Source: Kappaphycus alvarezii (taxonomy: Eukaryota; Rhodophyta; Florideophyceae; Gigartinales; Solieriaceae). Taken from it: a DNA stretch of 64,000 nucleotides. The stretch covers positions 397,001-461,000 of the forward strand of contig NADL03000478.1 in assembly GCA_002205965.3 (NCBI GenBank). Direction: 5' to 3'. Below are positions 10,746-48,014 of this stretch, piece after piece. Numbering within the stretch: position 1 is the stretch's first letter; the number at the start of each line of letters is the position of its first letter. Below the pieces are notes generated by a model. That model was not told the origin of the DNA. It was given only the letters and a program-made list of their open reading frames with translations, and did not search any database. A program made the position numbers and the translations under genes.

Positions 10746-11124
10746 GTAGATCTTTTAGTGGCATTTTCGGTCCTTTCCCGAGGTTCCGCCATGAAGCTAT
10801 CAGGAAAGTGGAGCTTCTGGATCAAAAAGCTTGAGTTCGGTTAATTTTATACAATAAAGGTACTTAAAAGAGTAAAACTGGCCTAAATAGAAAAAAGAAC
10901 TTTTAACTACGAGAAATAAGATTTGTTGCGGGCAAAAAAGGACACAGTAGAATTTACCAGACAAACAAGAGGATTGTAGGTAAAAGAAGGGCCACTTTCC
11001 TAGTAACTAATTCTAAAGTAGCGGTCTCTTCCATCTCTTTTGAAGGCTAGAGATCTGGTAAAAGTCTTTTCTGTTCAAAGTTACCTCCCGACTTGTCTTT
11101 CGTCTCCTGGAGGAAGATATCTAT

Positions 11125-11930
11125 TCAGCTTGTATAGACTTTTTTTAAAATGGAATCTTGATAAAAATACTGAACGCACCATAAAACTGACCATAAAACT
11201 GACGACAAGAATTCATGTGGACGCAGATAATTTGAGAGAGTATAGTTGACAAAAAATAAACAAATATACTCTCCACAACTATCACCTTCTATATCAGACC
11301 CTAACAATTCCCTAAAGACATCAAAAGTACCCATGTATTCCCCACACCTACACGTAAGCCAGCAGCACTCATAATTTGGTACCCCTTCCTGCAAAAAATC
11401 CAGCTCACTTAACGTACCTCCAACTGGATCCATGACCGGGACCACCTGTTCCATCTGATTCATTCTTCACCCTTCCGTTTGACCTGGTTTGACTTACCCG
11501 TCTTCATCTCCGGACTTCCCGACCTCCCCTTCTTCAACCTCTGACTCTTTCTAAAACTCCTCTACTTCTTCTTTCTCATTAGCGAGTTCCGGTTCCACCT
11601 ACTCCTTCAATATTTCCACAGCCTTAATATCTTCCTTTTCCAAATCACGTCCCCAAGCTCTTGTGCTTCGATCTCCACCAAATACTTAGCGAAGACCTCT
11701 GTCAGGCGCTTTTCCGTTTGAAGACAAAGATAGACCTCTACTTTGGTTGGGCCCGGGGAGAATAGCGGGGAGACGGTGAGGGTATAACGAGGACTATATT
11801 TGGAAATGGGAAGGGAAGGGCTTAGTCCGTGCAAGGTGACTGTAAAGAGGGTTGAATTTGTCAGATTGTTGTTCGAGCGCCGCGGATAAGTTTTCGCCAG
11901 CACCAGGCTATTTTTTGAAATAATCACAGA
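11125..11930 (-). pseudogene. Possible decayed CSL zinc-finger gene (DPH-like)
   Basis: On the minus strand, 11125-11463 reads GGTLSELDFLQEGVPNYEC, then TCRCGEYMGTF and a later Cys followed by ICLFFVNYTL. The order of an acidic/hydrophobic lead, a CRCG motif, about two dozen residues, a Cys and a hydrophobic strand resembles the CSL zinc finger of DPH3 and DPH4/DNAJC24, proteins of diphthamide synthesis. Upstream (11470-11700) the same strand gives acidic runs such as ELANEKEEVEEF, broken by stops, and then RDLEKEDIKAVEIL. A possible donor (GTAAGTC) lies near 11500, but no splice pairing I tried restores one frame. No J-domain HPD motif was found. The call is weak; a chance Cys cluster is possible. 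Confidence 0.22.
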
Positions 11931-14900
11931 GTTTTTCCCGTAACACCACGGCGCAATATCAATTTCGCAGTTTCTGAGTTCATGTTTTAATGAAACTAGA
12001 TTGAAGAGAACCGGAGCGATTTTTATACGTAGGGACTGCGGTCGGTCGGTCGGGTGAGCATCTACGATATGAAGGGGTACAAGTGGTGGATGGGAATTAG
12101 GGGGAAAGGCGTAAGGCGCATATTACGCAAGGTGGGGAATGTATTGCGGGGGAGGGCAGTGAAGGAAAATTGATTGGTGCTCATGGGGTGTTAGTTACGG
12201 GGTATCAGGACTGAGGAGGCAGAAATGGGGATCCGCTGGGGGAAAAAGGTAATATTGGTGGTGTAGAGAAAGTGCAAGTGATGGGAGGTGGGCTAGGTTC
12301 TGCGGGCTGTCGCGACAGAGGTGTTTATCTTTGAATCGTGGGCGTGGAGCATGAGTAGGCAGCGGAATATGGCGGGATGGCGGGCCAGGGTACAGCTCGA
12401 ATTGTGAGGGGAGTTTCTTAAAGTTTTCAAAGACAATGAAATTTACTCTTCCCTACTTGAACGGTCTTAAAGCTGTGAAAGTGATTAGTTTCCTCGCTAC
12501 ATGTCTCCGCCTTAAGCGCGCATGGAGCGAGGTAGTCGAGGCCGCATGTGGTAAAATAATCAAGTATTGGATTTTTTAGTATGCCTAAGCGTCCAACAGC
12601 GCTTTTTAATATCCTTCCTGTATTTTCTAATCGTAATGGCCGTACAGTATGCCTTGCTTCAATGCACGTGTCTGACTTGGTACACTAAAGTTACAAAGAT
12701 CCAGGCTGAATGATTATTAGACTCATCACAACGTGACCGGTATAATACCGAAGAATAATAGTAATAACGAATATTTAAAATTTTTATGGAGAAGTAAGGA
12801 TAGGTAGGATTGAAGGGGGATTGGCGAAACTTATGATTAGGCTGTCTTTCATCACGTACAGTGCCTATCCGTTCCAGCTTCGAGAAATGACTACCGATCC
12901 TATCTGTACTCGACAATTGGCTAGCTTCTCTGTCTGTCCTCGAAATAATAGATGGGAATCCAGTTCGGTCTCGACTAATGGCTCTCTTTTATCTGTCCCG
13001 TCCTCAAAAGTACTCAGTAATCCGGTTAGATCTGTGTATTGATATTAGAAAGCTCATTCCAATCACGATAGGCTCCTCGAATAGACTGGTACGGTCCAGA
13101 ATTTTCATTTACTTAAATATTCGGACAGTTTTACGACCGTGCTTAGGTACAGGGCCAACTAGTAGGGTACGAGCTAGCCAGGTGTGCCAGGTCGGCCACG
13201 TGCATTGAATGCTGGAAAATGTTGAACATATGGTACTGCACACACTTAAATTTGCTGTGCAGAAAACTAAATGTAAAACCAATGGGGTCCCTCAAAATTG
13301 GCATTCTGTGGTGCCGGAAATCCAATTACGACACCCCCTTCTCGACACTCCCTTTTTTCTTAAAATCCCACAAAATTTCAAGGGATAAAATGCAGCCTGG
13401 TGGCGTTAGCGGCGAGGCTGAAAAACTAGTAGACGTTTTTGCTTAGGGCAGACAAGTTTAGTAGGTTGAAATAAATTTTTGATAATTTTTTTATTAAGTA
13501 CCAAGGCGGCGAGATATTTTATAGCCAGAAGATGCCGTATATCTAGTAACTACTAACAAAAGTCCCTAGCAGATAATCCTAGGGACGGTCCAAGTGACCG
13601 TTACACTATAAAAATCCTAACAAGCTTCGCTAAAAGTGCAATAAGACAAAGAAAATATAGACAACGTAGGACAAATAAGTAGTAAAGACAAAATACCTAC
13701 AGTGCAGGATTTTAAATTATACATAAATGAAGTACTGTATATTTATCCTCGTAATTTTAACAAAAAGGGGAAACAACTAGTGAGCTAACGCAAAATTATG
13801 CCGAGCATGTTCTCTTTATATATCACATATAGAAGTTCTCAACTACATACCAGAATTAATTTTTAGTATATCCAAATAGGATGCCATGGTGTTAAAAAGA
13901 GTCCATCTTATTACTTAATCTTCCCTATTTCAATAGATATCACCTCTTTGCGTCGATTTTTCATATTTTGATCAAATCATGACGCAAATCACACCCCAAC
14001 TGAGCTTAGTCCGCGAGAATGGACGCATTGCGGTGGGAGACAGACTCGAACTACCTTCCGTTAACAAAAAAAATATCTAAAAACCCCCTCATATGTCCTC
14101 AATTTGTTTTAAATCTAGTTCTCTTGCAGTGCAGAGCTAGAAACGAATATTATGAGATACAGAAAAATGTGAAGTTACGTTCCTTTTTATGCATATACGT
14201 GTTATTATTCTAGAAACTCCATGTTTTCTGAAAGATATAGCTCTCAAAAGCTAGCAAAAAGCTCTCTATTGTGGTGCAATACCTCGATACGTCCTGATTG
14301 TTATTCAAAAAACCTTTCAAATTATGTGCTCGCACAAATGCATCAAAAAACATCGCAATATACCCTCCTTTATGATGGCTTGATAAGTTTTTTCCTCAAT
14401 ACAACGTCCACTTCAATAAGACTGACAATCACTATGTCAATCTTGATTCTGCTTTTTTTTTCATCCGCAAATACCACAAGAGCACACTTCTGGGAGAAGC
14501 ATGTATCTCCCTAGCCTAATCCTGGAGAACTTGAATATAACTTGGCGAAAATGGCGGTGATACTCTAAGCTTTTAAAACGTAGAATGAGACTTCAAATAG
14601 GATAATTGACGTATGTGGAAGCTCGCAACCAGAAGCGGAAAGCCATACATCAGGTTTTTTGAGATTTGTAACAATTTAGAAGCCTTTTCGGAAAGACAAA
14701 GTGCCTCATGATCTTATAATTACCTGTTTCTTTTTTATATTTTTCGATTTTTGTACTTTTCATTGAGCCTTAGATACACTCGAACCACAAAGAGAGACCT
14801 ATATTTCCTTATCGCAATCTCTGCAATAGTCAATTTCATTTTATTGATTTCAGTAATTTCTCCCATACCTCTCACCAACCAACCCGGTGTGTAGTCCACC

Positions 14901-15179
14901 TACAGGTTTTTTGAGCTTTTTGGATTGTCAAGAAGGTCTCACCAGTACTTTTGAGGCCAAAGAGATGATAGGAACACTGCATTTTTTGGTTATCGACCAA
15001 CCGTCATAGTCACATTTCCCATCTTCTGGGAGGCTTTTCGAATATTTTTAAAAGTTATCAGGAAATGTTCGTGAAGTTTTGTCTCTTTAAATATATGAAA
15101 AGGAATATGTTTATTATAATTTAGCATAAGTTAAGGGGTGAACTGGGACCTTTACTTAAAGATTTAATTGTGCGTGTTA
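11931..15179. other. No recognised gene
   Basis: 12.0-12.4 kb is relatively G-rich on the plus strand. The rest is AT-rich with short, unrecognised frames on both strands. I see no repeats or RNA signals of note. Confidence 0.55.
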
Positions 15180-15730
15180 AACAGACAAAACCCGAGAAGT
15201 GCTTGGCCAGTGCTTACTTCAGCAAACGGGACGGAAGAAAATTTCCTCATTGAAATTTAGGCAAGCCTAGAAATGAACGGGTTGAAAAAATCCCAGTGGA
15301 AGCGATGTGCTTACAGAAAGCGACGACGACAGCGACTAATTCTCAAAGTGGGCGATCCTAACTAACACCAATAGGACAGCAGCAGATAGGACCCATCGCT
15401 TGCTGTGACGAATACAGCATTGATTCGGTGCGTCAAGGTGGGCTGAGCATTGCAGAGCCAGATCGAGGACGACGGCCTTCCTTACACGTCCTTCCCAGGT
15501 CGACCCGAAATGTGGTCGGGACGAGAGACAGCAATCTCTCCAGAGCGGCAAAAACAAAAATCGACACAACGAGGGCTCCGAAGCGAGGACTGGCGAACCG
15601 TTAGACCTGCTTGGGCTTGATTCCTTGGCGCCCGAGCCCAGCACAGCCCGGGCGCCGAGTGAAGTGAAACAAGTTTTGAAAGAGACCAGTCGTAGAGGGA
15701 AAGCAGTGAGCGAAAGGGTCGGGGAATGGC
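15180..15730. other. GC-rich island with a strong hairpin, possible structured RNA
   Basis: Base composition rises sharply here against AT-rich flanks. GGCGCCCG at 15627-15634 pairs with CGGGCGCC at 15649-15656. The stem extends outward by a G-T wobble and two more pairs, giving an 11-pair stem with a 14-nt loop. A 193-codon frame crosses it on the minus strand (15336-15917) but is Arg/Ser/Leu-rich and matches nothing known to me. I compared it by eye with signature sequences of U snRNAs, SRP RNA and RNase P RNA and saw no match. It could be an unrecognised ncRNA or a GC-rich transposon scrap. Confidence 0.3.
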
Positions 15731-16053
15731 GCCTCAATTGACGCTGTGGTTTTATTTTTATTTCCAAAAAGATGCTAGGCCGTAATTGAATTCCCAATAC
15801 CGCAGGGTACAATACTATACTGCTCTGTGTTGTACGGTTACACTTGTCATTTTTCGCTGGTTCCCCTTTTAAAATAGTCCGCCAATGAAAAAGCATTAGA
15901 TACAATGAGAACCCCAATTAACGCAGATGCGTGACAGGCCTCCCGATGTGTACTAATTAGGGGCATGCGCAATAGCGATAAAATGAACATATTGGTATAG
16001 TGAACAACATGAGAGACGCTTTATCCAGTACACCTCTCTCTGTTCCTATGCAG

Positions 16054-18191
16054 TCAGAATAGGCAGAAAAAGTCCGCAATGACTGTCTGCCGACTCTTTC
16101 TTTTCCTTACATGCAACAAAATGCATTTCTTAGCCTTTTGTAGCAGCAGACCAAGCTCAGGGTAGTCGGCAGAATTTTTCGATACTTTCAATGATGCGAA
16201 AGCAGATGCAAACTCCTCAAAGTCGATAGAAACAAAATCAATCACCTCATCTGAGTCCCCTAAACCTTCTTCCTGAAGCGAGGGGTACACCGTGTCTCGC
16301 ATTTTTGAGCATCCTCTCTAATTCTTCTAAAACTTCTGTTTCAAGCATCTCTGAAACCTCTGCGGAGTCCTCCAACTCTATCCACTCTCTGAAGTCAGCA
16401 TTTGTAGCCGTTGTTATTCCTCTTAATTCCTCTTTGTCCTATCTTTTTTGCAGACGCTTCAACTAAAATGTTCTTAGCGTTGTAGGATAAACCCTGCATT
16501 TTCAGAATCAAGTCATTTAGTTCGTCCTTAGGAAGATGTGAAGCACTAGCGATTTTTCCGAGATTACTTTCAATCTCAGCATTCATGGGGGCTGGAAGAG
16601 TGGCAGCTTTCTTCCATCATTTATGCTCCAGCGTGGGAGTTAGAACTCCCCTGACACAATTAATGACTTCTGCTGCATCTGAAACATTGGGAGAATGTCC
16701 TTCATATAGACCGATTGTCCCCTGCACCATTCCCTTAGAAGCCTGTCGTAGGGCATCTAGACTCTCAAATAGCTCAATCGTCTTCTCTAAAAGTCTGTAC
16801 TTATACTGCCGCTTCAGCGCTGATCGAATACCCAAGTCCATTGGTTGATGGACACTTGTGCAGTTAGGCGGAAGATATACAATTTCCACCTGACCATTTG
16901 GATCACATAGTTCGTAGCCAAGGGAGCTGGCGTTGTCGAGGATAAGCACGGCAGGCTTGGATGTACGCTTCCTTACAGCAGGAAGAAACTGAGTCTGAAA
17001 CCATTGCAGACAAGTTTGACTGTCATTCGAGGCCTTAGTTTGCGATAAGTATGGGAGAGTGCACCGACTAATGCGAAATGTACGCGGATTCTTAGCAGAC
17101 CAGATAACAGTAGGCGGGAAAATATGACTTTCGCTTGGATTCTTTGTTATGATAAGGGTGATCCTGTCCTTCGCCTTCATTTCTTTTGTGCCTCGTATTG
17201 TCTTCTTGTTTTCTCTGAAGTTAGTTTTTTTTGCTTCGGTACGATCTTTTAAAAAAGACTGGTCTCATCCATATTATAGATTGAATCACAATCGTAGGAA
17301 GAAGGAACAAAAGTCAGCGCAGTGATCCCTTCTTTGATGGCAGCATTATCTACACTGCCTGCCTCTCCATGCAAGCGAACACTCTTTAACTGCTTTCGTT
17401 TAACAAAAGAGGTGATCCAATTGGGCGAAGCAGAAAATGAGCTCAATTTGGCACGCTCATGCTCACTGAGCGCTTCCTTCCTCAACATCCTATCCGTCAT
17501 GGCTAGAGCAAGCACCTCGAGAACTGCACGGGTCACAGACAACCTGCCACGCCGAGCAGTAGCTACGATTCGTAACAACTCCTCTTCAGTCTCTGTAAAT
17601 TTGGCAGCATGCATGCACTTCCTCTTCCCGTCTTCTTGATGACCACGGAGTGAAGCCACATTCTGTTTTTCTGGGTGTGGCTGAATATGTACGTCTACTT
17701 TTGCAAAACTTGGCCATGATGGAGGATTGCAGGACACCTTGCTTTTGAGCAGCCACCTCCAGCTGCCTATCAATGCTATGTCTTTTGCGGGACTGTTTCG
17801 GCCGCTGAGCGCTACCCCCACCAGACAACACAGATTGTAAACGAGCTCTTTGGTTCCCAACAGTAGATGGAGGCCTCACAGTTGAGGAGACATCGCCAAC
17901 CGCAACAGCAGCGATGTCATTAATAACTTGAGCCCCCCCACCTTAGCATGAAGAGCACCGGCGAGCTGAATTTGATCCTTCAAAAGTTTGTCCACACCAA
18001 GCCTGCAAGTGACCCGCGCAACCAGTGCATTTGTGGTAATTGCCGATTGGCTGTCTGCGAGAACAGTTTTCCTCCACGCAGAGGAGATTGACCGCGTCAG
18101 GTGTAGTCTTCATGGAAATTCTTGAGTGCTGCAGACAGCCTTCGACATGCGATTGTCTGCATCGAGACTTTATCTCAGCGTTGGGGCACAA
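16054..18191 (-). pseudogene. Pogo/Tigger-like DDE transposase, broken
   Basis: The product would bind element ends through CENP-B-type HTH domains and carry out DD-D strand transfer. The minus strand shows, in order: a Cys/His-rich region (17943-18191, including YHKCTGCAGHLQAWCG and a final CSSC); an HTH with SRKRHSIDRQLEVAAQKQG (around 17760); a second HTH with SPNWITSFVKRKQLKS; the first catalytic Asp in YNMDETSLF; the second in LILDNAS; and the third in VYLPPNCTSVHQPMD. A stop (TAA) directly follows DETSLF where the family has an aromatic residue. A frameshift follows before RGTKEMKAKDRITL, and a TGA follows TPTLEHK. The tail is read in two more frames to about 16054. Length and domain order fit the Tc1/mariner-pogo class. 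I could not fix the terminal inverted repeats. Confidence 0.85.
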
Positions 18192-19539
18192 TTAAGTGGA
18201 TGTTCTCCACAGCGCTGGACGACGATGGGGTGCCAGGGGGCCACTACAGTTTATCTGTAACGGCTGCGGTACAGTACAGTCTATAGACTCCGCCACGTGC
18301 AGTGGGAGCAGTCTGGTGACAGAACCTGGTCCAGAGCTGATGTTGTATTTCACTTCACAGACCTTACATCTTTACACAAACTCACTGCATCTACTTTACT
18401 GTAGATTCAAACCACTGCTAACCTTGCAACCACGGCTACTAGGCACTTTGCTGTCATTACACCGTCCTTTCAGTTCTGAACACAGCTTTTGACCCCATTG
18501 GTACACTTGGAATAGTTACGGGCTAGTTGCACACTGGGATATTATATCATTGCTTTACCAATCAAAAAAGTAGCCTTGCTATCCCATGCGACCTGGACCA
18601 ATGTACTTCTTACATCTTGTCAGAGTATGTCACTCGTGCCGACGACAATTCTGAAAGCGCTAATTACGATACCGTCAGGGCTGTTTTACGGGAACACCTC
18701 TGAATTCGCTACTGTTAGACTGCAATTTCCTTTAGTTTGTAGCTATCTTCAGTTCTATATAAACCCTGGTTTGGAGCGGCCGGCTTAACCTAGCCAGCCT
18801 CAACCAAAGTTTCAACTACAGTTTTACCTTGATCTGCTCGTGTGCGCTTAACACCCCACAGGTGACGCATTGGTGTTCGGGTTACCGCCCGAAGTGAGTG
18901 AATAATTGCACCAGTGCTACAGAAATTTAGAGCTTTCAATATAAACTGTGCCACCATGTGTCTAACCCTAAGTTTTGAGAGACTACATTTTTTGAGTTCT
19001 TCATTATATTTGCGAGCAAACAGGCCGATCCCGTGTGCATACAGTCTGTAGTAGCCTCTTACAAAACAAACTAGTCTGTACTGTGAAAACTAGAATTACG
19101 ATTCGGGACGTCGACAGGTACAGAAACGTTCTCCCCATTACACTAGACAGGCAACATTGTCTGCCTCGAAATTTGTCTTTATAGAAACTAGTACATTATT
19201 GTGAGGAAAAACGAAATGCCCGTTACAGAATACCTCTTCTGTAAGAAGGATGAAAAAGCGGTGAGAGCCAAGCCAAAACGGCAGTCCCAGGAGCGAAAAA
19301 ACCTTCTGTACAGCAGTTTATTATAACCGTAGCATCATTATGCCAGAATCATTGACTCGGCAGGTACGAGAAACCCAATCGAATCGAATTTGGCTGCACA
19401 CCGGCCAAAAAGCTACGCAGGAGCGGAGGCATATATCCTCTAGTTTGTCCGTCGGCTCCACCCCTACCTCCCTGACGGAGATGGCGGTCTTCCGGAAGCA
19501 TTCACGCCAGACAGTCTCGCTGCCAAGCCCGACAATGCA
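18192..19539. other. No recognised gene
   Basis: This is GC-moderate sequence with short frames in every register. It includes a GTACAGTACAGT run at 18269-18280. No protein family, RNA or repeat boundary is recognisable. Confidence 0.5.
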
Positions 19540-22300: not shown

Positions 22301-22454
22301 TGCGCTGTTACTGTACCGTGTCACTGTGAAATGGTCGAATATATGGCGTAGGAGCAGCACTGCTGGCGTAAATTTTATTTCGTAGGTACAGTAATTACAT
22401 TGGGATGGCATGGCACAATTGTGCATGTATTGTACTGTGCACGGTCTGAGCAAG
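22301..22454 (-). repeat. Left inverted (subterminal) repeat
   Basis: Read on the minus strand, it matches 29632-29784 over about 150 bp with many small differences. Shared blocks include TGTAATTACTGTACCTAC and GTGCACAGTACA. It lies about 350 bp beyond the end of the helicase gene. Confidence 0.7.
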
Positions 22455-22809
22455 TACTTAGTCCTAGAAAAGCGAAATATAACTTTCTTTGTTGTTTGAG
22501 AAGTAAATTTCAATGTCTAAACTGATAGAAAAAGTTAAGTTGAACATTACGACATTCCTCGATTAAAATCACAGTATATAGTAGTTTTTATATTTTAATG
22601 GAACTATTACGACAGCTTTTCTTCTTGGGTACGTGGTTATTATGACAGAGATACGCTTAGCACGCTTTACTATGAAACTTGATTCATCCAATGAGGCATG
22701 TTTTCGGGTTTTAAAGTAAAGTCACCTTAACTATACTCTAGTTCAATCAACTTTCGCCGCTACAACTCATGTACCATGGCTCGTTGCACGGGTAAAACGA
22801 CATAGTACT

Positions 22810-25800
22810 CCGGGAGCACCTCTCAAGCCCTTGAATTGAATGAGGGAAAGAACTCTCTTCCAACCTCGGAGTGCTTAGATACAGTCGCCAATTTCCCAAC
22901 AATCACGAGAGCTTTCCTTGCTCGGGATAAAGAAACACATGCAGCTCCCCTATCATCTCAGAAGTTTTTTGAAACCCCATTGATTGGATTCCGGTACTTG
23001 TAGGCCTTCGTGGATAAGTATCTAACCATAGAGAGAAAGATGACATCAAATTGAGACCCTTGGCAGGAATCAAAGGTCATAACAGTCACGTTTTTCTCCA
23101 ATCCCTCTCGCACTAAGCTACTATAAAATTCCGATAGTTTTTTTCTATAAGGCGTCAAAACTGCAAAAGTTGCCGCCCTCATTCTTTGTTTCCACTTTTT
23201 GATCATAGAAACTATAGTTTTCGCTTCGATGGGGTTTGAGTACCCAGCCCATGAGAATAACTTCTCGGCGGAGTTTTCGGCTGTTTCTTTCGTATCGAGA
23301 AGATTCACATCTCCAAATTGAACTCCCAAGAACCAAAGATGATTTGAATAATTGAAACGATTCCAAGGAGTATCGCCAGGTCTCCGACCATTCTTGAGCT
23401 TTCCGTTGTAAAACAAATTACTGACCGGGGTTCCAATTTGCTCCGCACTTCTCACCTGCTCATTTAGCAAGAAAGAAGTTGGAGGATAAGTCTTTCTTAT
23501 GCTGCCAACTTCCTTAGAACGTACCGTGCCCTCTGACGATGTATAAGACAGTGCATGTATTCCCCTCTACATGAAGTGCCCAAGGTTTTTCAAATGTCTT
23601 AACCACTGCTTGAAAGTTGATTTCGTGAAAGGGCGCGTCTGTTGCGGAAACAAGGGTTGTTCCAAATCGAGGAAGGCCGGTAGAAGAAAAGACCTTTGAC
23701 AATGCAGTTATAGTCTCTTGTTCACTGCCTAGAGATGCCTCATCGACAATTATTGTATCGAATGGATCAATCCAATCCCATTCCATAACCAACGCGGACC
23801 CAAAGTAAAGATGTAAAGATGACTCGAAAATGGTTCATGATTTCAATGGTAGAAACAGCAACAGGATCACCTCTTTTTCTCTTCAACAGAGCATTAATCT
23901 CTCTTGATGTACAAAGTCTTTTTACTTCGCGATCCATTACCTGTGGGATCTTAGAATGCTTCCCAATGCGAATCGGCCACAACTATTTCTTTGTTTCCGA
24001 TCCAGCAGTGTCCCAGTATCTCATGAAGAGGTCATCTACTGCGTCGTTGCTCACACTTAAAATCAAAACACGACTCGTGACGAGGTCTGGTGGAGTAAAA
24101 TCGGGGTTCCTGTCATCCAGCACGGTCTCTTCAGTGGTGAGACGGATTAGCATATTCGAAACGTGACTCTTGCCCGTTCCAGGGGGACCGTGGCAGAAAA
24201 TAACCTTACTGCACAAAACAAAGGATGAAGGACCGTTCATTTCACATCTGGCCAGAAAAGTTTCCAACGAGCTTAGAGGAATGGAGCAAATTAATTCCCG
24301 CATGAAAGCCCAGGATACCAAAACAGCGAGCTGGGACTCATTGGATGTCACAGAATATTTGGATGTGAACTTAGTGACCGAGCTCCTGGTTTTTTCCAAT
24401 AAATCATTGGCGTATGAAGCGCAATTCAACAAAGTTGGTTGAACAGCCGAGGGTCTCTTCACTGGACCTTTCTGTAAAGCTTCCAACTTGGCAAGGGAGT
24501 GAACTGATGGAAGAAAATATTGGTCCTTATCGACCAATTCTTTGCCAAGCGCCGGATCAGAGAGCCCTACGCGAAGTGTGGGAAACACATAGTGCAGGCT
24601 GAACGCTGCGGCTGAAAACATGTTAAAACCTTGTATTCCACTCCATACCTTGTAAATCTTGACGATGTAGTCAGTACTGCCGAATAAATCCAAGTCAGCG
24701 GAGAAATATTCGCTCTTCTTCGAATCATCCCAAACCAACAGTTTCAAACCGTAGATATTATTCCCAGCCCTATCAATAACCGCCTGCTGCAAATGATCAG
24801 ACTGACCAGTAACGAATCCATACAGCGAACATCTCGGACGTTCTTCTTCGAAAAGCCGCATCTCAACCACACAATATGACTCGAAAACTGCAGGACCAGC
24901 ACCTTGAGAAGGAGTAGAGGTAGATGTTAATCTTGTGCTCTCCAAAGATACAAAAGCCGTGACCGATGCGAGGCGTACGTCTCTGCTTAGTACACCGCTA
25001 TCCTCAAGCATTGGAACGGGTAGTACCACTGGACCAAAGCCAGCATTCTTATCTGCCCCTTCCTGGCGAGTCCATACCATCGGGTTTATGTACCCGTATA
25101 CCTCAAGTTGCTCGACAATTCCACACCAGGACACAAGCTCATCTCCACTTTTCAAGCCCACTGGTCAAAGTAATATATCCTCCATCGGCACGAAGGAAAC
25201 ATTGGGAGTAACCCAGAAGAGCAGTCATCGACGAGACTCATACATACTTCAGCAATTACCTCCGATCCAGATGCCATACAGTAGTCGAAGTCCCTTGTCG
25301 CTCTATTAGACACCCCAACAACCCAAGAGCTTGACCCTCAAAAGTTGAGAAATGGAGGTATCAAGTTGTCGCAGTACATCTGGGCCAAATTTTTCGCCAA
25401 TTTTGTTGCTGAATCGTCGATTGAAAATTACTGATGCGGTATTAAGTATGAAATAGATGAGGTAGCAAAAGTTCTTCAGGATGTCCAAGAAGACTCTCCG
25501 AGGCTAAACAACCATGGCGGTTGCCCTGTCATTATACCAAGTTCGTAGTTTCTTAAATCGTCTTCTGTGTTCGCTGCACCAGACTCTAACCGAACTTCTT
25601 GAACTTCATCACGATTTTCACCTTCTGTTTTGTTTCTTTCACGTTGAAGATCGGGTTGCTGCGCTAAGCGACCTTCAGCATTCCATTCATGCGATTTCCT
25701 GGGCACACGGTTAGGAGGGGCGATATGCGAAGAATCTATTGTGGGTACGTCACTGCTAGTGCCATTGCTGCCCAGAGCCTGTTTCCCATGGTATACAGTT

Positions 25801-26142
25801 CACAGAGCCCCTGCTCCACTTCAGACCCCTTGTCCTCAAGGGTAACTTATCTCCCACGGCGGCCATAAGGGAATGATGTAGATCCATTAGAATGATGGGA
25901 TGGATAAAGGAGAAGGATTCAATGGGCCTGTTTGCGTCCAAGTTCTTAGAGGAACTTTGACGACCTTCCCTCTGAAAGGCCCTCCCCACGTTCTTCCCCG
26001 ACCTATTCATTACATCGAAGGCAAACTTCAACGCATGTTTCATACAATCGTATTCTCGTCTTGCATGAAGACCTGATGAAATTTCCCCCATGAACAAGCT
26101 GCTTCTGGCAACCAAATGCTCCTTTTCCACGACTGCGACCAT
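22810..26142 (-). pseudogene. UPF1-like superfamily 1 helicase, decayed
   Basis: The first ATG after the protease gene is at 26142. The core lies at 22810-25161 and shows the SF1 order: a Q-motif-like SNESQLAVLVSW; Walker A in FCHGPPGTGKS (near 24170-24185); motif II in DTIIVDEAS; a motif III-like GTTLVSATD; LLNEQVRSAEQIGTPVS, as in the 'QYR' block of UPF1-type helicases; MTFDSCQGSQFDVIFLSMVR (motif V region); and a terminal SLSRARKALVIVG (motif VI region). The N-terminal 1 kb (25.3-26.1 kb) has no domain I recognise. The reading frame is interrupted roughly eight times by stops and shifts, so it is not functional as it stands. Family enzymes unwind nucleic acid using ATP. An ATPase of this type paired with an Ulp1 protease inside an inverted-repeat unit is unusual. 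It could also be an old host gene caught between repeats. Confidence 0.75.
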
Positions 26143-26172
26143 TTTAATGTCCTTAAAACATCTTAAAAAGGC

Positions 26173-28298
26173 TTAAAGGGGATCCGGAGTGTCTTTGCTC
26201 TGTATCATCTTCAATACATACTCCATTATGCATACCACATGTATGCATACCTGCTGCATGAGTGCTCTCCCAGTAGGCGAGAAAACTTCGGCTGCATTGA
26301 ATTGTTTCGAGGCTCTCGTAAAGTTAAGAAAAAGACCCCAAAGCCTCTTTAAACCATTGACCAATACGCGGGCGTTGGCTTTTCTTGCTCCGTGTAGGAT
26401 GAAAAGAAAGTCGGAGCGAGACGTAGCAAAGCCAGAATGGGGGTAACATTGCATCGCCTTGAAAATAAACTCCGCTCCACCGTACGCTGGTAGGACGAAG
26501 CACAATCCGACAACAAAAGAGAACGATCCCAGCGAAAATTCCAAAGCAGTTTCCTGTAAATGCTTCTTCAGTTTCACGCCCACCTTGAAAGTCGAAGAGA
26601 AACGGGTTGTGACATCTCTCTTGACATCTGATCTTATAACAGGATCCCTCTCATGAACAGAAAACATGTTCTGAGAGACGTTCATCACGGACATATCCAC
26701 CCTCCAATTGCCCTGAATTATAATATTGGCAACGGAGTACCTCTCGTCCACAAAATTTTCCATGTCCTTACACTGAAGCCTGTAGAACGAAGGCATGGAA
26801 TCTTCGCCGAGAATCACATCCTCGGCTATGAACTTTCTTCGTGCCAAACGAGCGCGACGAACAATTTCGTTCCATAATTCTTCAAATTGTGGTGCTCTTG
26901 ACTCAACGAGGGGTAGAACCACCGCATTATCTGCGCTCAGTCTGGAAAATATCGCGGTAAGAGGGCCACAGAGGTTTTCTGACGCTGGCTGAGCACCCAC
27001 ACATTCTCGAACCCGGTGGTATGTAAAGTTTTCCGGAACGAGATCTGAGTAGATCTTCGAACCTCGAAACTCTTCTGCACCCTTGCAAAGCCATGGAATT
27101 ACGGAATGTTCCACGTGCGTCGCTGAATGCAGAGAAACGTCATGCAATGAGTCAAGGTGCTCGATGAAGGCTTTTTCGCGGCACGTACAATGTCCAGCTT
27201 TGAGACAGCGAAGCATATTGTGCATTTTATGAATCCGAACCAAAGAGAAATGTTCATTTGACAATATTGGTACCAAGAGAAGCGATGAATTGAAGATAAG
27301 TCCCCAAGACAAACTGCCGGATGAACTTTGCGACCGATTACTTGCAACCGATAATGACTCGGACACTATGTCGGAACGAAGTACGACAACTGAGGCCTTC
27401 TGATTGACACGAGTTTCAAGAGCCAGACGAAGGACATAGATATATGCATCGCTGTTTAGTTTCACCTCTTGGGCCTGCAGGATCTGGTCATACTCATCCA
27501 ATGTTATATACTGTTGCTTTTTGTCGAAATCATCGTACTTCAAAGCCTTTGTTGTTTGAGGCTGTGTTCCAGATCCATTCCTTTCGGTTCTCTCCTTCTT
27601 CCTTGTCGAGGCAGGTTTCGGATGACCCTTCAGGTCGATGAATTTTTCAGGGGTACGCTTCCTTGCAGAGGATGCATTACCAGCGCTGCCTCGCGGATCT
27701 TTTCGAGTGTCGTGGGAAAGAACCAACCTCTCCTGGAGACGGATGTGAATCTTTGGCAATGGAGCAATAGCAATGTTATCATCCGTATTCTCCACGAAGC
27801 CTTCCTCTGTCGCTACTCCACCGGCAGTGCAAGGAGTGGGAACGGAAACTGACTTCAGCGGAACATCGGTAGACGCAGACGGAGTCGGAGCGGACGGCAA
27901 ACTAGTATTTCTTGGACAGTTCTCTCCCCTTTTTCTGGTCTTCTTGACGGCTTTCAGAATTCTCTTCTGCCGTCCTTTTTCCTTGATAGGCTTTTCCTCC
28001 TTACGCGTAGGTTCTTCTTTGGCTCGACTAACAGAACCCCCTCTTCTTTATCGCTAGAATCCTCCTTCAATATTCTCCCATGCAGATTCCTCCTCTTCCA
28101 TTTCGGAGGAAGGACTTCTATCTCACTTGCCAGTGCGCCCTTGTTGACCTTTTCGGCTGCAATTTCAGGCTGCAATGTCGTACAAGGTTCTTGTGCTGCT
28201 TTCGAGGGTCCAACACGGGAGAAAGCATTCCTGTGCGTGCTCCTGCGACGTGTTATTGCCGGTTTCAGTTGTTTCCCTGCAGTCATTTTGCGCACCAT
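26173..28298 (-). CDS. Ulp1 (C48)-like cysteine protease-domain protein
   Basis: The long open stretch 26173-27900 (575 codons) continues the basic N-terminal frame at 27954-28298, with one frame change near 28.04 kb. The N-terminus is Lys/Arg/Ser-rich and disordered. Residues about 150-320 of the long frame match the C48 fold: SDAYIYVLRLALETR (substrate-side helix), LIFNSSLLLVPILSNEHFSL with the catalytic His at about 217, FIEHLDSLHD with Asp at about 250, and GAQPASENLCGP with Gln 304 and Cys 311. The Gln-Cys spacing is one longer than usual. Such proteases remove SUMO/ubiquitin-like tags in cells, and Ulp1 domains are also carried by several DNA transposons (MULE, CACTA, Zisupton types). 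The last 250 residues are unrecognised. The stop lies 31 bp before the ATG of the helicase gene, an operon-like spacing rarely seen in host nuclear genes. Confidence 0.7.
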
Positions 28299-29045
28299 GG
28301 CGATATCCTTCTGCGCGAAAAGAGAAGTCCAGGGATTGGAAAGACAAGGAGGTTGCGGTTCCGTGAATAATCGAAAAGCAGGAATTCAAAAGGGGGTAGT
28401 TTCGGGTAGGTGTGGTGTGATGGACTGAGGGTATATGCCAGAAGGTTGGTGAGGGATGCTGAAAACGTTGGAGGAGTTATCTGTCGTATGCAGGTTCACG
28501 CGTTACCCCTTAAGTACTATCGGAAAGCGGCTGTTGGTTCTCAGGTTGCACAAGCTGTTTTCATCAAAACCGCAACGCTGTCGAAATGAATTTCCTGTTG
28601 GAGGGGATGTATCACACTCAATATTGTTGACGGTTATTGAAAAATGTGAGCCGTTTGATTTCTTCCTTTTGAGGGAAACCACAACCACTTAAGTCGTATG
28701 GCAACGGGCGTTTGGCTTTGGAGGGGTGCGGGAGATAGGGGATGTAATTTTTTGCGTGAGAAGTGACTAGTTGACATTAGTGCAAAAAGATGTAGCCATG
28801 AGACCGAAGGAAGGGATCGAAGAGTCGCAAGTACGGAGTACGGTTAATGACGCAAGTACCAGACTGGAACAGAATGTGATACGTCAAAACTTGTGTGTAG
28901 ACAAATACTAAGCATTCATTTCATAACATCCACAATACCGGGTCTACAGTGCGATCTTCGAAAAAAAAGCGATGTCTTAACTGAACTTTGGAAATGGCAG
29001 CTGTTCCTATGTTGTACTTGGACAAGTAGTTTCCAACAAAAGAAT
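28299..29045. other. Upstream region of the Ulp1 gene
   Basis: No coding sequence is recognised. It lies between the N-terminus of the protease gene and the tandem repeat at 29046 and presumably held the element promoter. Confidence 0.4.
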
Positions 29046-29407
29046 GGACTATTTGAAAATGGTACAGTTCTGTAGGTTAGTAATGCAGTGCCGTATAGAA
29101 TAGTGTTGAATAACCTTAAAAACCGCGACTCCGAAGCCAAAAATGAACAACAAATAACGGAAACAACAGAATATTAGCTTACAAATTTGAACTCCCCTTT
29201 TCGCAGTACACTACATGCACAACTGTGGACTATTTGAAAATGGTACAGTTCCGTAGGTTACTAATTCAGTACCGTATAGAATAGTGTTGAATAACCTTAA
29301 AAACCGCGACTCCGAAGCCAAAAATGAACAACGAATAACGGAAACAACAGAATATCAGCCTGCAAATTTGAACTCCCCCTTTCGCAGTACAATACACGCA
29401 CAACTGT
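29046..29407 (+). repeat. Tandem duplication of a 181-bp unit
   Basis: Copy 1 (29046-29226) and copy 2 (29227-29407) both begin GGACTATTTGAAAATGGTAC and end CACAACTGT, with only scattered differences. The unit contains an unbroken shared block beginning CCGTATAGAATAGTGTTGAA. High identity points to recent duplication. Confidence 0.9.
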
Positions 29408-29525
29408 GCCTTGCCACCCCACTGTAATTACTGCACCTCAAAAAAAAATTTGGGCCAGCAATGATGCCGCCACGCCATGCATTCGCACATTTCACGGTGG
29501 CACAGTATAGTACCAACGCAGCCCA
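29405..29525 (+). repeat. Extra direct copy of the right subterminal repeat
   Basis: GTGCCTTGCCACCCCACTGT and the following CATTTCACGG...GTACCAACGCAG are repeated, with differences, at about 29664-29784. A third, weaker copy starts near 29810 (CTGTGTTTCCTGTACCTG). The right end thus carries two to three tandem subterminal units against one at the left. Confidence 0.65.
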
Positions 29526-29631
29526 TAATGCAGATTCTCACCTTTACTTTTCCTAGGTATTTAGAAGTTGTGCTTTACTTTTTTAGGACAAAAAAGTTGC
29601 GCTTCACTTTCGCAGCACTCCCGCCCCCGAA

Positions 29632-29784
29632 CTTGCCGAGGCTGTGCACAGTACAGTACATGCGGACCTGTGCCACGCCACACCACTGTAATTACTGTAC
29701 CTACAAAATAAATTTAGGCCACCAACGCTGCCTCCACGCCATACATTCGCCCATTTCACGGAGTCACGGTGTAGTACCAACGCA
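29632..29784 (+). repeat. Right inverted (subterminal) repeat
   Basis: It is the inverse of 22301-22454, with shared blocks GTGCACAGTACA, TGTAATTACTGTACCTAC, CATTTCAC and CACGGT. It probably marks the right end of the Ulp1/helicase element. Confidence 0.7.
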
Positions 29785-30196: not shown

Positions 30197-33085
30197 TTAG
30201 TTAATGGGTACTACATAATCCTGTGTGTCTCTTTTTGTTTCCTCTGCGGGACTCCTTGCTGCAGAAACAGTAGACGGAAGATGACTCCCTTCTCTTGAGA
30301 AAGCATTGTTCTCGATTTTATCACCCTCTCCCCCATGTTTAGGGAAAATATCTCCATGCAATTTCGACAGTATGCTCCACATAACGTCGTCGTTCTCATT
30401 TTCCAACATGACTTGCAATACTTTCAAGCGAATAGTTTCAAGCTTAATATTTTCGGATAGTGCACAATCTTCGATATCCAGACAAAGCCCAGCCAATGTT
30501 TTTATACGGCCATTCTCTCCGTCAAGGTTCACCAACGCTTCACCAAGCTTCCTTGAAACTTCACCGATTACGGTATATTCACATTTCTTAGAACCGGTAT
30601 TCTGGCGTTTGGTAGATCTTGACGATGTTGGAATTGTTGAGTAGTTACGCCTCAGAACCGCCCTTTTTTCTTTGTGCTTCCACCAAAGTTACGGGAAGGT
30701 CTTATCTGTCGACGCTTCCAGGGATCACATCCCAATTCACTCATTTGGACATGATCCAACTCTTTCAACTGTTTCACAGCAATTCCTGGAACCAATCCTA
30801 CGCCACAAATATTTTTCACAACTCTATTTTGGTTTTCCACTCCATTTCTGTTGTGGAAGCAGATTACTTTCGTATTTCGGTCCATTCTTGAGTAGCATGG
30901 CGCAATTATACGCTTAATACCGTGTTTTTCAACCCATAAAACCCATTGTGGATCAATTTCCCGTGCAACTGCCAACCATTTGTCCGAGTCCTCTACGATG
31001 TAAGAGTGTCGAAGACTGAACATTGCCTTCCGCAGTTGGGCAGACATCGCAACCCCCACCTTGCTCACCCTGTTCTTTATGTCACGATCGAAATGCACAT
31101 CGCAGCCCACCATTATTGATTCGATGTGAAGATCTTTCGGCGCGCCTGTCGCGTCTTGGAGAGTCAATGCAATTCCCTGAACCTTAGAAGACTCGAAACC
31201 GGTAGTTATGCCACGAATATAAATGGATTGGGCATCGAATTCCGAGCCCATCGGAACACAGGGGACCTTCATTCTACATCTACGTAACTTTCCTTGGCGC
31301 ATTGTTCTTCAAACTCAAAAAACTTGGCATAAGAAATAAGCATGTGTCCCAAAAACATTGACCAAGCAGCCCTATACCGCTCGACAGTTAGGCGGGATAT
31401 CAAGAACCTTCCAAAAACCGCAGTTTTTGTCCTTCAGCCTCAAATTGAAGGTTATTCTGCCTTTTTACTATGTCATAAAGGTACCAGTCTTTGTCCAAGG
31501 GGTCCATTCTATCAACAGTGATTGACTTGTATGTCGCATCCCCGGAAAACAATGATGAAGTAGCAGCGTGTTGGAGCATTGAATCTGAGGTAGGCAGGAC
31601 GACAAAGCCATCCTCAATTGTTCTGATATCCAGCACGTATGGTTCTGTTGGATCAGCTACCATCCTAAATAAAGCATTCACTTGTTGATACAATGATCTC
31701 TCATTTTCTCGAACAGAACGACTCATAGAGTAGGCAGCTTCTTTTCCAATCGCAGCTTGGTTTGAATCAATAATCCCCTCCCCGATCAGACTTGTTTGGG
31801 CACGTATATTCACCACGATAGGTTTCGCGTCCGGAGATTTCATTGCTTCAGCAGCTAAAATCGGTGTTTTTGAATTGTCACAGGGGGGGTCGGAGGCGGT
31901 GTATGGTTTTGTTCTCCAAAGGCAACAGCGAACAAAACCTTTTCCTCTTTTTCGGTTCCACTGGATTTACTCAATAGTATTTCCGAATTAGAAGGAATCC
32001 CAATCCCCCTTCCCTCACCCTCGCCTGCAAACAAAATCAAATCAAACGATCAGACTCCGGAATCAATTAGACTCGACAAACAGTTCCCCCATCTAGTTGC
32101 ACCACGTCGGCTCTTAGGCGAGATGTAGTTACAGTTCTCAGAGAGATCTGGAATCTGGCCGTCTTTCATAATTTTTTCTAGAGCATCAATTCCTTCATCG
32201 GAGAGATCTTTGAGGGCAGCGACATGTGCCGCTTTTCTGAGTTCTTGCAACCCTCCACAAGTGAGGAAAACACCCAATATTCCGGAACATCCAATAAAGC
32301 GGACATTGGTGGTTTTCTTCCTCCTTAATACTGGTCCCCTAGTACATCGCCTTCCACTTAGTATGGGGTCTGCTACATTTGATACCTTCCCTATAAATTT
32401 GCAGTATCCAAATAGCTGAAATTTTTTGAATAGTCCGTACATATTTACTGCCCTTTCCATCACGATGTTGGCAGATGTAGGTATCTTTTTGGGTTCCTTC
32501 TCGTTTTTATATCATTCCGTGACTTCTTCTATATTGCTATGACGATATCCCAAGAACTTCGCAGAAGCTCTAGTGCAATGGCGAGCTCCTACGCAAGAAT
32601 ATTTCCTTCTTATCATTACTGCATTGTTCAAAAAACGGTACTTTACATTCACTTTTCCCTTTCGTCTTGAACCGATATCCCATTTTATTCAGTAGCTCTT
32701 GAATATTCATGCTTCCAATACCGTGTAGAATACCTTCCTTGCTAGAATCCAACGATAGCAAAAAATCTTTGTCCTTAGGAAAATCATGGAATTGAATATA
32801 CTCGGCCCCATATTGACCGTCCATTCTCGGTCGCCTTGATAAGTGAAACAGACCTGAAGCTGAGTCTCTAATTATTCAATTTTTTCCATGAAGCCATTTC
32901 TGAACTTCACTCGATGCACCATTTTCACTCGGAATATGCTCAGTAAGGAAATTTGTATCCTCAGGAGAGTCCAATACGATTACATCTTCTGCAATGTCGT
33001 CGATGACAATAACTTCATCATCAGACAGCTCATTTCGAGGGAATTTGTGACATATTTTCTGCGAAAGGAATGTCACTTAGAGTAA
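30197..33085 (-). pseudogene. Decayed DDE transposase (MULE/KDZ-like)
   Basis: The minus strand reads from an acidic N-terminus (DDEVIVIDDIAEDVIVLDSP, 32876-33076) through KMGYRFKTKGKSECKV and a middle domain (32050-32463) to a DDE-like core. The core contains VLPTSDSMLQHAA, LFSGDATYKSITVD (candidate first Asp), RLTVERYRAAWSMFLGHML, VGCDVHFDRDIKNRVSKVG (candidate Cys/His-containing second site), then WVLWVEKHGIKRIIAPCYSR and FHNRNGVENQNRVVKN (candidate catalytic Glu in an 'N-x-x-E-x-x-N-R' motif). This order fits MULE or KDZ-type transposases, families that often travel with Ulp1 proteases. The frame shifts or stops about six to eight times. It lies 0.4 kb outside the right inverted repeat of the Ulp1/helicase unit, on the same strand. 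It could be a separate element or the transposase of a larger one. Confidence 0.55.
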
Positions 33086-36000
33086 GTCTGAAAGGGATAA
33101 CGTCTTTGTAATTGTACTGGTTTAGAGCAGGGGTGTTGAGTAGGAGGCCCATGGCCCGAGTATGAGGCCCTGGAATTTGTATACTCTCGAATAACAAAAT
33201 TTCTCGAATAGTATTACGGCTAGGCCAAACTTACAGCTAGATAGTACCCACTACTGTTTAGACTAGGTTCCATTCGAAAACGCCTCAATAGCTAAATCTA
33301 CGATATTTAGATTATCATTTCTTCATATTCAGCTATCAACAGAGATTATTAGTTAATACCTTTCCAATACACACTGTTGAATTTATTAATGATGAAGTTA
33401 GTTGGAACCTTGTGAAAGGTTCAGTGCAGTGTCAACTTTATCTAGTCGGTTTTATGCATGGCTTTTATTCTTTTTCCGCAAACGATGATACTATATTGCC
33501 AACTGTTGCATTTTACTGTTTCTTCTACAATCGCAGACATCCAAATACCTTTCTATATTCTCCATTGGAAAGACAATGGTAATAGTCATTACTTTGCTGA
33601 TCCAAGTAACGTTAATGCCAATCATTAAACGATTTCGGTCTGTTCACTCCCTGATTTCCTCATCGCTATTGTTAATAGTCAAAATATCTCCGCAAACCGT
33701 TTACTGTGCCTTCTATTGTAACCAATAAAATTGTTCCGTCACATAATTTTTATGGCTTTATGTAACGGAAGGACGCAAAACACTGCGGTTTGTCCGAAAC
33801 CATGTTTCAGAAACTTATGAAATTAGTAAACTCAATTTTCAGGGCTACCTTCCATTACCGGATTCAGGAAAACCAGGTATCTGTTGCAAGATTTCTCCTT
33901 TTTTACCTATCCCAGACCTATCCACGTCCTTAAGTACTGTAGTCATGCTAGCGACTATATTGCTCATGTGTGTTGTCCTAGCTTTCCGCTTTTACATATG
34001 AATAGAGAGCGTTGCCATCGATGACAAAGAGTCAGAATTATAACGCCGTATTCAACTGAAAATTCACCATGATCAGAAGAATTCATATTTCATAACCTAC
34101 TCACAACGGCTCCCTCGTGCTGTGTCGCTCCAATCTCAACAGTATAAAACTCTAAAATAAAGTACTTTTCATTAGCATGTAATTAAATTCATTACAGTTA
34201 TGAACTTACATATAGTAGAAATTAGCCCTGACCACTCCTTGTTGTCATTCATAGAGCTGTGTTGATTTTATTAATTAGAATATATATGACATCCCCATTA
34301 ATATTGCCATATGACATTACATCTCAAGTCCGTGTGGGCTGAGTCGATTACCCTGTGGGTCTGTGAATGAGTGGAGCGTCTTCCAAGGACATTCGTACAG
34401 TAATTCACCTGGAGACGTTCAGGAAGCTTTTGGTGAAGAGTTTTTACTCCTTTAAAACAAGGGCGACTACTGCTATACGACAAGTATGTTACGTATCTCA
34501 AATTTTTGTAACTGAATAACGTCCTATTGTATCATTCATGTAAATAAATCATCGAAAACCTATTAAATTTTACTTTTGTACCTTGAGAATACAGTTTGTG
34601 CCGATTATTTCAATACAACGCTGATTCTACATGATGTAAGTCATATTTTTTGTGATATGGCATTCCCCCGCCTGAAATACAAATCGTTTTGATACTCTTC
34701 CTCACTATATTCAAATAATAGATAGACTAGCTTCATATCTCTGATTACGGAAAACTAACACATGTAACCCTGTTTTCAGTGAGGTCCCATCGTGACGTAC
34801 TGCTCGAATTTTTCTTCAGTGGAATCAATGTTTATTTCCAATATTGGACTAATCATACATGGATTCTCAGAAAAGCATTACTGATCATTTGTCCGTGCTT
34901 TTTTGGACGCGTGATTTATTTATTTTTCTTACTCGATACATCGACAAGTTGTTAAAAGATTTACAATGCACGTTGACCATTGATGATACACACATTCGTA
35001 GTCCTCAAGTTTTAGTTTACTGAAATCGGGAAGGAGATTACCTGAACAATTCTTCTGTTTTCAATGGAACCCTTCCATGAATGTAGTATGGAGGCCAAAA
35101 TTAAGTAAGTCTGATAAATTAGCAAACACTCTACTCTACATTCGGTGCATCAGTGCTGTGATCTGCGATGTTGTTCTCTTAAAATATTTTATCTCCTTCG
35201 GGGTCGTTCAACGGCATTACTTAAGTAATTGGATGCTTACATACAATCTACCGCGCAACACGCTAGCGGCATGAAGACAACCAACCACCTCTTCCATACA
35301 TTAAAATAACCCAAAAATCCCCCACTACGGGTGTAGGTTGTGTTCATTGACGTAATTAATCAGATCTTGCATTTGATCGAATCAGTACAGTATTGGTTTG
35401 GTCCAAAGAAGCCTCCCACAAATGAATGCTGCATATGGCTATAAGTCGTTCAATCAATTCAGCATCACACTCCTGCTCCGTGTCTTGCTTCAACAGAGGC
35501 AACTTTTTATTGCACCATGTGAGCTTATCACGCTTGATTTATAATCACAAATCTCATGTTTTTAGTTGCCCATCACCTTCATCTTTTCAGCAGTTATCAA
35601 TATATATATATTTATTTGTTTTGAACTTTTTTCTTTCCTTACTGTTCTATATTTCTGAGCTTCTTTTCACCTATTTCATGTTTGACTTTTTGTGTGAATT
35701 TGTATACTATAGCCAATCCATTTTGAATATTTGCTCTAAAATTTCAATGAAGTAAAACTCTTTCCATATTAGACGTCGATGTATACACATTCCTTCTTCA
35801 CACAGTAACATAGAAAAAATGATAGGAGGTATGATATGTCGTTTTTTGACGTTTCTTGTACAGAACATTCAGATCAAACGTTCAGTAAGCCTTCTTTGAT
35901 GCTAATTCTATCGTAAAAGTCTTAACCATTCTATTTCATGTGTTCAATGCGTCCTTGTGAACCCTTTTATGATTTTTAAATTTTTCATGCAGCCGAATCA

Positions 36001-40259: not shown

Positions 40260-40643
40260 TGTAGTATGCGTAGTGTCAGCGAGGGGGAACGGGAAAGGAA
40301 AGCATGGTGAACGGGTACAATGGTCCGCCGGGATGCAGTTGCAGTCTCGTATTTGGTTGTTTTAGTAGGTGGAGTCACTGGAACGGTCGATATTTCTCTC
40401 TGACTCCAAAACTGCCTCTCTCCTCACGCCCCGATCGGGCAGTGAGAGCTTCCTTATATAGCCGTGCGATAGCTATAGAATAGCAGATACAGTAGACGAT
40501 AGCCACTGTATTACCGGGAGCACAATACTGTACAGTAGTATTGCCACTTGGCTGTTTAGGGCACAAATCATTGGATCTGCCAAGTCAGATCAGTCGTGGC
40601 CTGTGATTGGCCGAGACCGTTCGTACAGTATACACTGTACAAA
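40260..40643 (-). repeat. 3' LTR of the copia element
   Basis: It matches 46543-46985 from TGTAGTATGCG to ...CTGTACA. It shares the TATA-like TATATAAGGAAGC (minus strand) and the pentanucleotide-rich GTACAGTAGTATTGCC block. It is about 60 bp shorter than the other LTR. Confidence 0.9.
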
Positions 40644-41115
40644 ATACTCCCCGATTGGGCCGAAACGGTCCTTATACAGTAAAATGCCCAATTAATTATA
40701 ATCCTTGAACTGAATAATACGAAACGTAAATAATAAGTGTGCACGTCGATTAAATTGAAAGTAGCCGTTTGCCATGTGAAGTACAGTACAGTACACCATA
40801 CAAACGCCTTCTTATTGGTCCAGAACGAGCATATTTCGGCACCATGAAAAAAACAATAAAAAAACTGCAGCTTTGATGTCAGCAATGTTTGCCAAATGAC
40901 CCAATTGACAAAAGCAATCGAGATCTGATCCGTCTAGAGGTTATACATGTAACCGCCAATCTTCTTCAGCATTCGCAGTTCCTCTTCAGCCACAGCATCC
41001 AACAGCCATGTCTTCTTCCCCAAGGTTTCCATTCAACAATCCAGACCTTGTGAATGCGCACGCCCGCATTTAGACACTACCCCCTTCACCCCCTCGAAAT
41101 GACCATAGTTTCCCT

Positions 41116-45182: not shown

Positions 45183-45214
45183 AGGTATCAGATCAGAATT
45201 GGTATGGATTCCGC

Positions 45215-46534: not shown

Positions 46535-46542
46535 CCCATAAC

Positions 46543-48000: not shown

Positions 48001-48014
48001 TGGGGAAACAGAAT

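Follow-up and report, generated by a model that had tools for sequence, protein, structure and literature searches.

A decayed Ulp1-like protease and UPF1-type helicase fusion gene in a probable giant terminal-inverted-repeat transposon of the red alga Kappaphycus alvarezii

We analysed a 64,000-nucleotide stretch of Kappaphycus alvarezii DNA (GenBank assembly GCA_002205965.3, contig NADL03000478.1, positions 397,001 to 461,000 of the forward strand; hereafter the window, part of contig C474) and searched the 336 Mb, 884-contig assembly for relatives of a decayed gene in it. This gene, which joins a Ulp1-like protease to a UPF1-type superfamily 1 (SF1) helicase, appears to be carried by a giant terminal inverted repeat (TIR) transposon. 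It occupies 22790–28298 on the minus strand (about 1,800 codons by coordinates, the extent being approximate), is interrupted by stops and frameshifts, and shows no intron pattern; the similarity of distant families begins at 22789. The helicase region (22961–25337, minus strand) matches Pfam AAA_12 (E 2.6e-22, 79.8 bits, at 22961–23566) and AAA_11 (E 4e-6, 27.2 bits against a cut-off of 27, at 23986–25164; 38.1 bits when joined). An earlier interpretation made from the letters alone, the sequence-only reading, had picked out a Walker A motif GPPGTGKS (24166–24189) and a DEAS box (23733–23744) on the minus strand; both are present, and together with the two Pfam matches they place this part among the SF1 UPF1-like helicases. 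The NCBIfam IGHMBP2 model scored 11.4 bits, far under its cut-off, and the helicase had no PDB sequence match.

The protease part lies at 26905–27345 (minus strand), where the catalytic motifs named in the sequence-only reading were found again: SNEHFSL at 27241–27261, EHLDSL at 27145–27162 and Q..ENLCG at 26965–26991. The window's protease open reading frame (ORF; 26176–28047) matches no Pfam family, and neither the window nor the L010, L017 and L051 reads give a Peptidase_C48 match. The profile search that the sequence-only reading had recommended thus passes the cut-off in a homologue and not in the window: an ORF on contig C508 (L059:790-1575) scores 22.2 bits against a Peptidase_C48 cut-off of 20.7 (E 1.4e-4; 24.1 bits in the genome scan), and a search against 24,736 Pfam models, with E allowed up to 1, gave it no other match. 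A genome scan with PF02902 listed 32 places, one of which is inside a locus of the protease part (C508:1049068-1049505). The His, Asp, Gln and Cys of the C508 copy align in the columns of the window's residues. All four are present in the window, L059 and L052 pieces, and at least one is replaced in L010, L012, L014, L017 and L020. The family thus has the His-Asp-(Gln)-Cys order of Peptidase C48 and one member above the profile threshold.

The sequence-only reading described two genes 31 bp apart; the gap is instead the interval from an in-frame stop to the next start codon in the same frame, and in relatives the coding region runs on from the protease into the helicase. Of the eleven protein pieces defined in the window (N, U, U2, U3, V, H0, H1, H1b, H2, H3 and H4), each of 16 loci holds only a part, and the order is the same in all of them. 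The possibility that the two domains would turn up at unrelated places was checked; the domains stay together. Neighbouring pieces of different name share a frame in 68 of 112 cases, against one third expected by chance. At L014 a single frame carries U(143), U2, U3, V and H0 to H1(96) and spans the protease-helicase junction; L009 has a single frame from U(319) to H1(240), and L027 one from U2 to H1(117), except for one short piece. Piece order and reading frame together indicate that protease and helicase are two halves of one decayed gene.

Next to this gene, at 30200–33076 on the minus strand, is a second one (T, as opposed to U for the Ulp1/protease part), which is probably a DDE transposase. 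It is 72% identical in DNA to contig C749, as seen in a block from 30.3 to 32.9 kb aligned over 2.5 kb. Copies of T contain D-A-T-Y-K or similar. The next motif is T-D-[FL]-E in C592 and C667/C834 and differs in the window and several more copies; further on come C-x-[VI]-H-F and N-G-x-E-S, which also vary; all three acidic residues are present in the T pieces of C667. The window itself has DATYK at 31526–31540, a Gly in the region of the second Asp (31186–31206), CDVHF at 31090–31104 and NGVENQ at 30829–30846. By eye, this order resembles what we take to be the consensus of the transposases of Mutator-like elements (MULEs). Membership of T in that superfamily was considered and found no support in hmmscan, in a genome scan with the MULE domain PF10551 or in a profile comparison with two host MULEs, which was not significant and used weak profiles. 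Since the libraries give it no support, we call T a probable transposase only. The T-bearing stretch of C204 (L022) is inverted relative to the window copy (30264–35705).

Copies of the region reach well beyond the two genes. Close copies of 22.3–29.8 kb (80–88% identity) are present on C451, C855, C834, C667, C651, C204, C545, C543 and C848, and distant relatives (63–67% identity) on C749, C477, C688, C671, C636 and C462; C834/C667 and C204/C545 are not independent, because these pairs look like duplicated contigs. The sequence-only reading was right in supposing a mobile element that carries a Ulp1-like protease together with a UPF1-type SF1 helicase, and this element has many copies. The copies stay colinear from about 18875 past 39.7 kb, a point that several of these contigs reach. 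C651, C545 and C204 start jointly at 18875–18878, and C848 and C462 share a right end at window position 47189. The whole element, delimited by shared ends, a 9-bp target-site duplication (TSD) and a probable empty site on C814, spans 18878–50534 with its nested insertions and measures about 21.6 kb once the nested Copia-like and Harbinger-like inserts are subtracted. The ORFs in 18.9–22.3 and 33–40.3 kb have matches in close copies and hardly anywhere else, and none of them could be identified; three ORFs at 38.4–39.8 kb have no Pfam match.

The left TIR lies at 18878–18908 (plus strand) and the inner part of the right TIR at 47164–47189 (minus strand), its last 7 bases being found at 50528–50534, past the nested Harbinger-like element. 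Both ends contain the core GAAGTGAGTGAATAATTG, at 18891 on the plus strand and 47164 on the minus strand. Across the genome this 18-nt core gives 55 + 57 matches with at most 2 mismatches, against 2 + 4 for a reversed control, and exact cores are listed at 34 places. To the left of the element stands ATTGGTGTT (18869–18877) and to its right ATTGCTGGT (50535–50543), identical at 7 of 9 positions. With both ends set 13 bases beyond the core, in one register for seven end pairs, the 9-bp flanks agree at 9/9 positions in C2, 9/9 in C767, 8/9 in C848 and 7/9 in the window. In these four, no more than 4 positions match at a length of 8 or 10; in the 8-bp test the counts are 2/8 in the window, 3/8 in C2, 3/8 in C767, 2/8 in C848, 7/8 in C462 (poly-A), 0/8 in C36 and 2/8 in C866. 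The first bases of the ends vary, and the window ends are not CA..TG. The TIRs and the 9-bp duplication assign the element to the cut-and-paste TIR DNA transposons. The elements on C2 (C2:354274-380473, 26.2 kb) and C767 (C767:1121341-1143774, 22.4 kb) share this terminal core and are flanked by perfect 9-bp duplications; the duplicated 9-mer is the same in both, in opposite orientation.

Contig C814 matches the window at 2500–18332 and 50782–53383 with 83–89% identity, and at its locus L028 the matches to the left flank (ending at 18332) and to the right flank (starting at 50532) are just 21 bases apart. These 21 junction bases extend the left flank as AGAGGTGACG, followed by AATTGCTGGTGCC; a single copy of ATTGCTGGT, the sequence of the right duplication, is present there. 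C814 also lacks the repeat at 18339–18861 and has 2.9 kb of unmatched sequence about 120 bases right of the junction, and we therefore grade the empty site as only probable. The host region on C814 is a segmental duplicate or a divergent haplotype without the element. The copy search and end alignment that the sequence-only reading had suggested for 22.3–29.8 kb thus located the true ends, the 9-bp duplication and the probable empty site outside that interval.

Protein searches with T, in which 81 of 81 candidates were scored, returned 77 matches; those with U, in which 71 of 135 were scored, returned 84. These matches merge into 48 T and 48 U loci, both numbers being lower bounds. A T locus lies within 20 kb of 26 of the 48 U loci, where the density of T loci would predict about 0.3 by our own arithmetic; the two are on the same strand in 15 of these pairs and on opposite strands in 11. 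Fourteen of the 34 exact terminal cores have a T or U locus no more than 20 kb away, for which the chance is about 1% per core. In the Ulp1-helicase gene of distant families, substitutions are concentrated at one codon position, with chi-square values of 11 to 202 in all eight windows of 22475–27274 that passed the coverage cut, and T compared with C749 has a third-position excess in 6 of 6 segments. Close copies gave codon-phase chi-square values of 0.1 to 12.6 across 21 windows. The strong codon bias between families that are about 65–72% identical, and the little bias between close copies, is the contrast to be predicted for copies that degenerate once inserted, with the proteins maintained in active lineages. 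Judged from these substitution patterns, both genes were under selection for protein sequence in active lineages.

A unifying model based on these data, which we hold to be probable, is a giant TIR transposon, most likely Mutator-like, of about 21.6 kb that moves by cut-and-paste with a 9-bp staggered cut, T being its transposase and the Ulp1-helicase product an accessory protein. T, as a DDE transposase, would bind the 18-nt terminal core, and the Ulp1-helicase protein would be made by the element as a helper. Its C48 part could strip SUMO or a similar tag from the transposase or from host proteins that act in silencing or repair, while its UPF1-type helicase part could unwind element RNA or DNA, and this unwinding would either block RNA-based silencing or help to process the long excised DNA. 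Help against silencing seems to us the likelier of the two roles, a tentative preference that may well prove wrong and that we draw by analogy from plant Vandal MULEs, whose VANC-type KIU genes bear Ulp1 (PMC13317346). The sequence-only reading had offered two options, an undescribed transposon class or an accessory cassette of one. A new class is not demonstrated, and the accessory gene of a giant DNA transposon is the reading of the Ulp1-helicase gene that fits best. More speculatively still, the copies could represent a new superfamily of giant transposons, with an 18-nt core, a 9-bp duplication, a DDE transposase that has diverged beyond the reach of current models and, as its hallmark, a SUMO-type protease and UPF1-type helicase in one self-encoded protein that counters host silencing.

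Several observations count against the transposon model just described. No intact copy was found: stops interrupt 60 of the 77 T and 72 of the 84 U matches, and the stop-free ones are single pieces. AlphaFold models of U and T are poor (mean predicted local distance difference test, pLDDT, 46.4 and 45.0). Neither Pfam nor NCBIfam has a model that T matches above cut-off, the PDB searches gave nothing useful for it, none of the 40 PF10551 places in the genome scan coincides with a T locus, and the second Asp of T is an Asp in some copies only. Three of the seven end pairs have no clean TSD (C462 6/9, C866 6/9, C36 3/9); C2 and C767, the source of the perfect duplications, may be one duplicated site, and the protein searches found no T or U match in either element. 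No T is seen within 20 kb of 22 of the 48 U loci, and neither T nor U within 20 kb of 20 of the 34 exact cores. Five of the 21 close-copy windows exceed 5.99, the 5% point, two of them outside both genes. Finally, the function we infer for the Ulp1-helicase protein comes by analogy only.

The most serious competing explanation is that T is not the transposase, that another transposase acts in trans, and that T and the Ulp1-helicase gene are both accessory. The failure of any transposase model to match T would fit, and giant algal families without a recognisable transposase are described (PMC12477816). We nevertheless regard it as unlikely, given that the order D-A-T-Y-K, D-[FL]-E, C-x-x-H-F, N-G-x-E-S recurs in several copies, with the full acidic triad in the C667 pieces, and that in the parts of distant elements examined T was the only other gene seen conserved.

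Less probable again is that the Ulp1-helicase gene is a passenger, a host gene captured in the manner of Pack-MULEs and with no job for the element. There are published accounts of MULEs that capture genes and of giant algal elements with accessory genes (PMC6431247, PMC12477816), and the U loci without a T neighbour would agree with such a history. A passenger would sit poorly, however, with a gene that is present in element families as far apart as about 30% protein identity, with a third-position excess between them, and that has T nearby at more than half of its loci (the 26 of 48 above). A remnant of an endogenous DNA virus or of a Polinton-like element, with Ulp1-like protease and helicase genes, would account for the giant size, and Polintons have a Ulp1-like cysteine protease (PMC10175614, PMC5601938) as some giant endogenous viruses have a Ulp1 homologue (PMC12455990). 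We consider this very improbable in view of the 9-bp duplication, of a viral-contig scan with one helicase piece that found no relative, and of the subset of ORFs scanned, among which no capsid, polymerase or packaging gene was recognised and none of the PolB, integrase, capsid and packaging genes of Polintons/Mavericks was seen.

The reading we credit least, and reject because copies continue through the arms, takes 22.3–29.8 kb itself as a transposon bounded by 150-bp inverted repeats: a pair of arms, each about 155 bp long and 80% alike, does flank the gene in several close copies, but homology passes through both of them in other copies (left to 21.9 kb, right beyond 32 kb), and no copy was seen in which they mark the limit of similarity. 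The arms noticed in the sequence-only reading exist, at 22301–22455 (plus strand) and 29631–29784 (minus strand, with a further partial copy at 29385–29521), and do not bound the mobile unit. Their absence from the alignments of six distant loci means that they do not define the element. Whether they are a dispersed repeat was also considered: among 28 scored candidates they were found only on element-carrying contigs, and thus do not look like a general dispersed repeat. A 181-bp tandem duplication occupies 29045–29406 (plus strand).

Helitrons are not known to have TIRs or TSDs, and they carry a HUH/Rep nuclease, unlike the element described here with its TIRs and 9-bp TSD. The likeness is in their RepHel protein, a single polypeptide with a helicase and, in some of them, also an OTU cysteine protease (PMC6431247). 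MULEs come closer. Their target duplications measure 8–11 bp (PMC6446971), a range that includes the 9 bp found here, and Ulp1 domains are known in some of them (PMC13317346, PMC2836005), including the KIU forms of the anti-silencing VANC gene (PMC13317346), as in our element. On the other side, T has no match to the MULE transposase domain (PF10551), Ulp1 is here fused to an SF1 helicase where the word "helicase" does not occur in PMC6446971 or PMC13317346, and the Pack-MULEs of PMC6431247 are far smaller. Ginger1 is likewise a DNA transposon with a Ulp1 domain, but there Ulp1 forms the C-terminus of the transposase, the duplications are of 4 bp and the elements of about 2.6–7 kb (PMC2836005).

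Giant transposons are known in algae: EnSpm/CACTA elements of 16–20 kb with 4–5 ORFs in the red alga Chondrus crispus, and KDZ, EnSpm and Sola1 elements in Ectocarpus (PMC6431247, PMC12477816). These resemble the Kappaphycus element in being giant TIR transposons with accessory genes and nested insertions. EnSpm and its relatives make duplications of 2–5 bp and mostly have CA..TG ends, and Zisupton duplicates 8 bp (PMC12730594); the element here differs from EnSpm/CACTA in its 9 bp and its variable first bases, which are not CA..TG in the window, and from KDZ in duplicating 9 bp and not 8. No Ulp1-helicase was found in the excerpted descriptions of the giant algal elements (PMC6431247, PMC12477816). 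More broadly, the sequence-only reading knew of no described element with this pair, and our full-text searches of the open-access literature turned up no transposon with a Ulp1-SF1 helicase fusion. PDB profile and sequence searches with U, T and the helicase found either nothing or a single match each, at E 0.56 and 1.1.

Our analysis adds a lineage of large TIR transposons with an unusual two-enzyme accessory protein. Transposon proteins thought to counter silencing include VANC/KIU in plants and TET/JBP in fungi (PMC13317346, PMC12730594); if the proposed role is true, a SUMO-type protease joined to an SF1 helicase would add another kind of anti-silencing protein to these, and the fusion would allow direct tests of the means by which long DNA transposons persist in their hosts. 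Whatever the function, the 18-nt core and 9-bp duplication supply a rule for annotating elements that would else be split into unrelated genes and repeats.

The two nested insertions are not part of the element proper. One is a Copia-like long terminal repeat (LTR) element at 40261–46985 (minus strand), with LTR repeats, an RVT_2 match and many copies; at its insertion site C848 and C462 have uninterrupted junctions. The other, at 47190–50524, is a DNA element that is Harbinger-like by sight, with a 3-bp duplication CAG by inspection, and its internal ORF has no Pfam match. Left of the transposon, 15900–18332 is a Pogo/Tc5-like transposon (DDE_1 E 2.5e-25, HTH_Tnp_Tc5 5.2e-5), adjoined by the repeat at 18339–18861, a high-copy sequence of about 520 bp whose copies are 94–96% alike and which is perhaps a solo LTR. 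To the right are ordinary host genes for a translation-factor GTPase of the EF-Tu/EF-G type (54045–55514; LepA-like by sight), a nucleotide-diphospho-sugar transferase (57042–59009) and TACO1/YebC (60756–61679). Elsewhere in the assembly, Peptidase_C48 and MULE-domain matches 2–3 kb apart (C590:927405/929809, C585:4498322/4500952 and C43:202271/199541) are possibly ordinary Ulp1-bearing MULEs; the C590 MULE match and both C43 matches fall under the cut-offs. A bacterial-looking Transposase_mut match (E 2.4e-74) at C534:6801-7700 (L061) indicates that the assembly may hold bacterial contigs.

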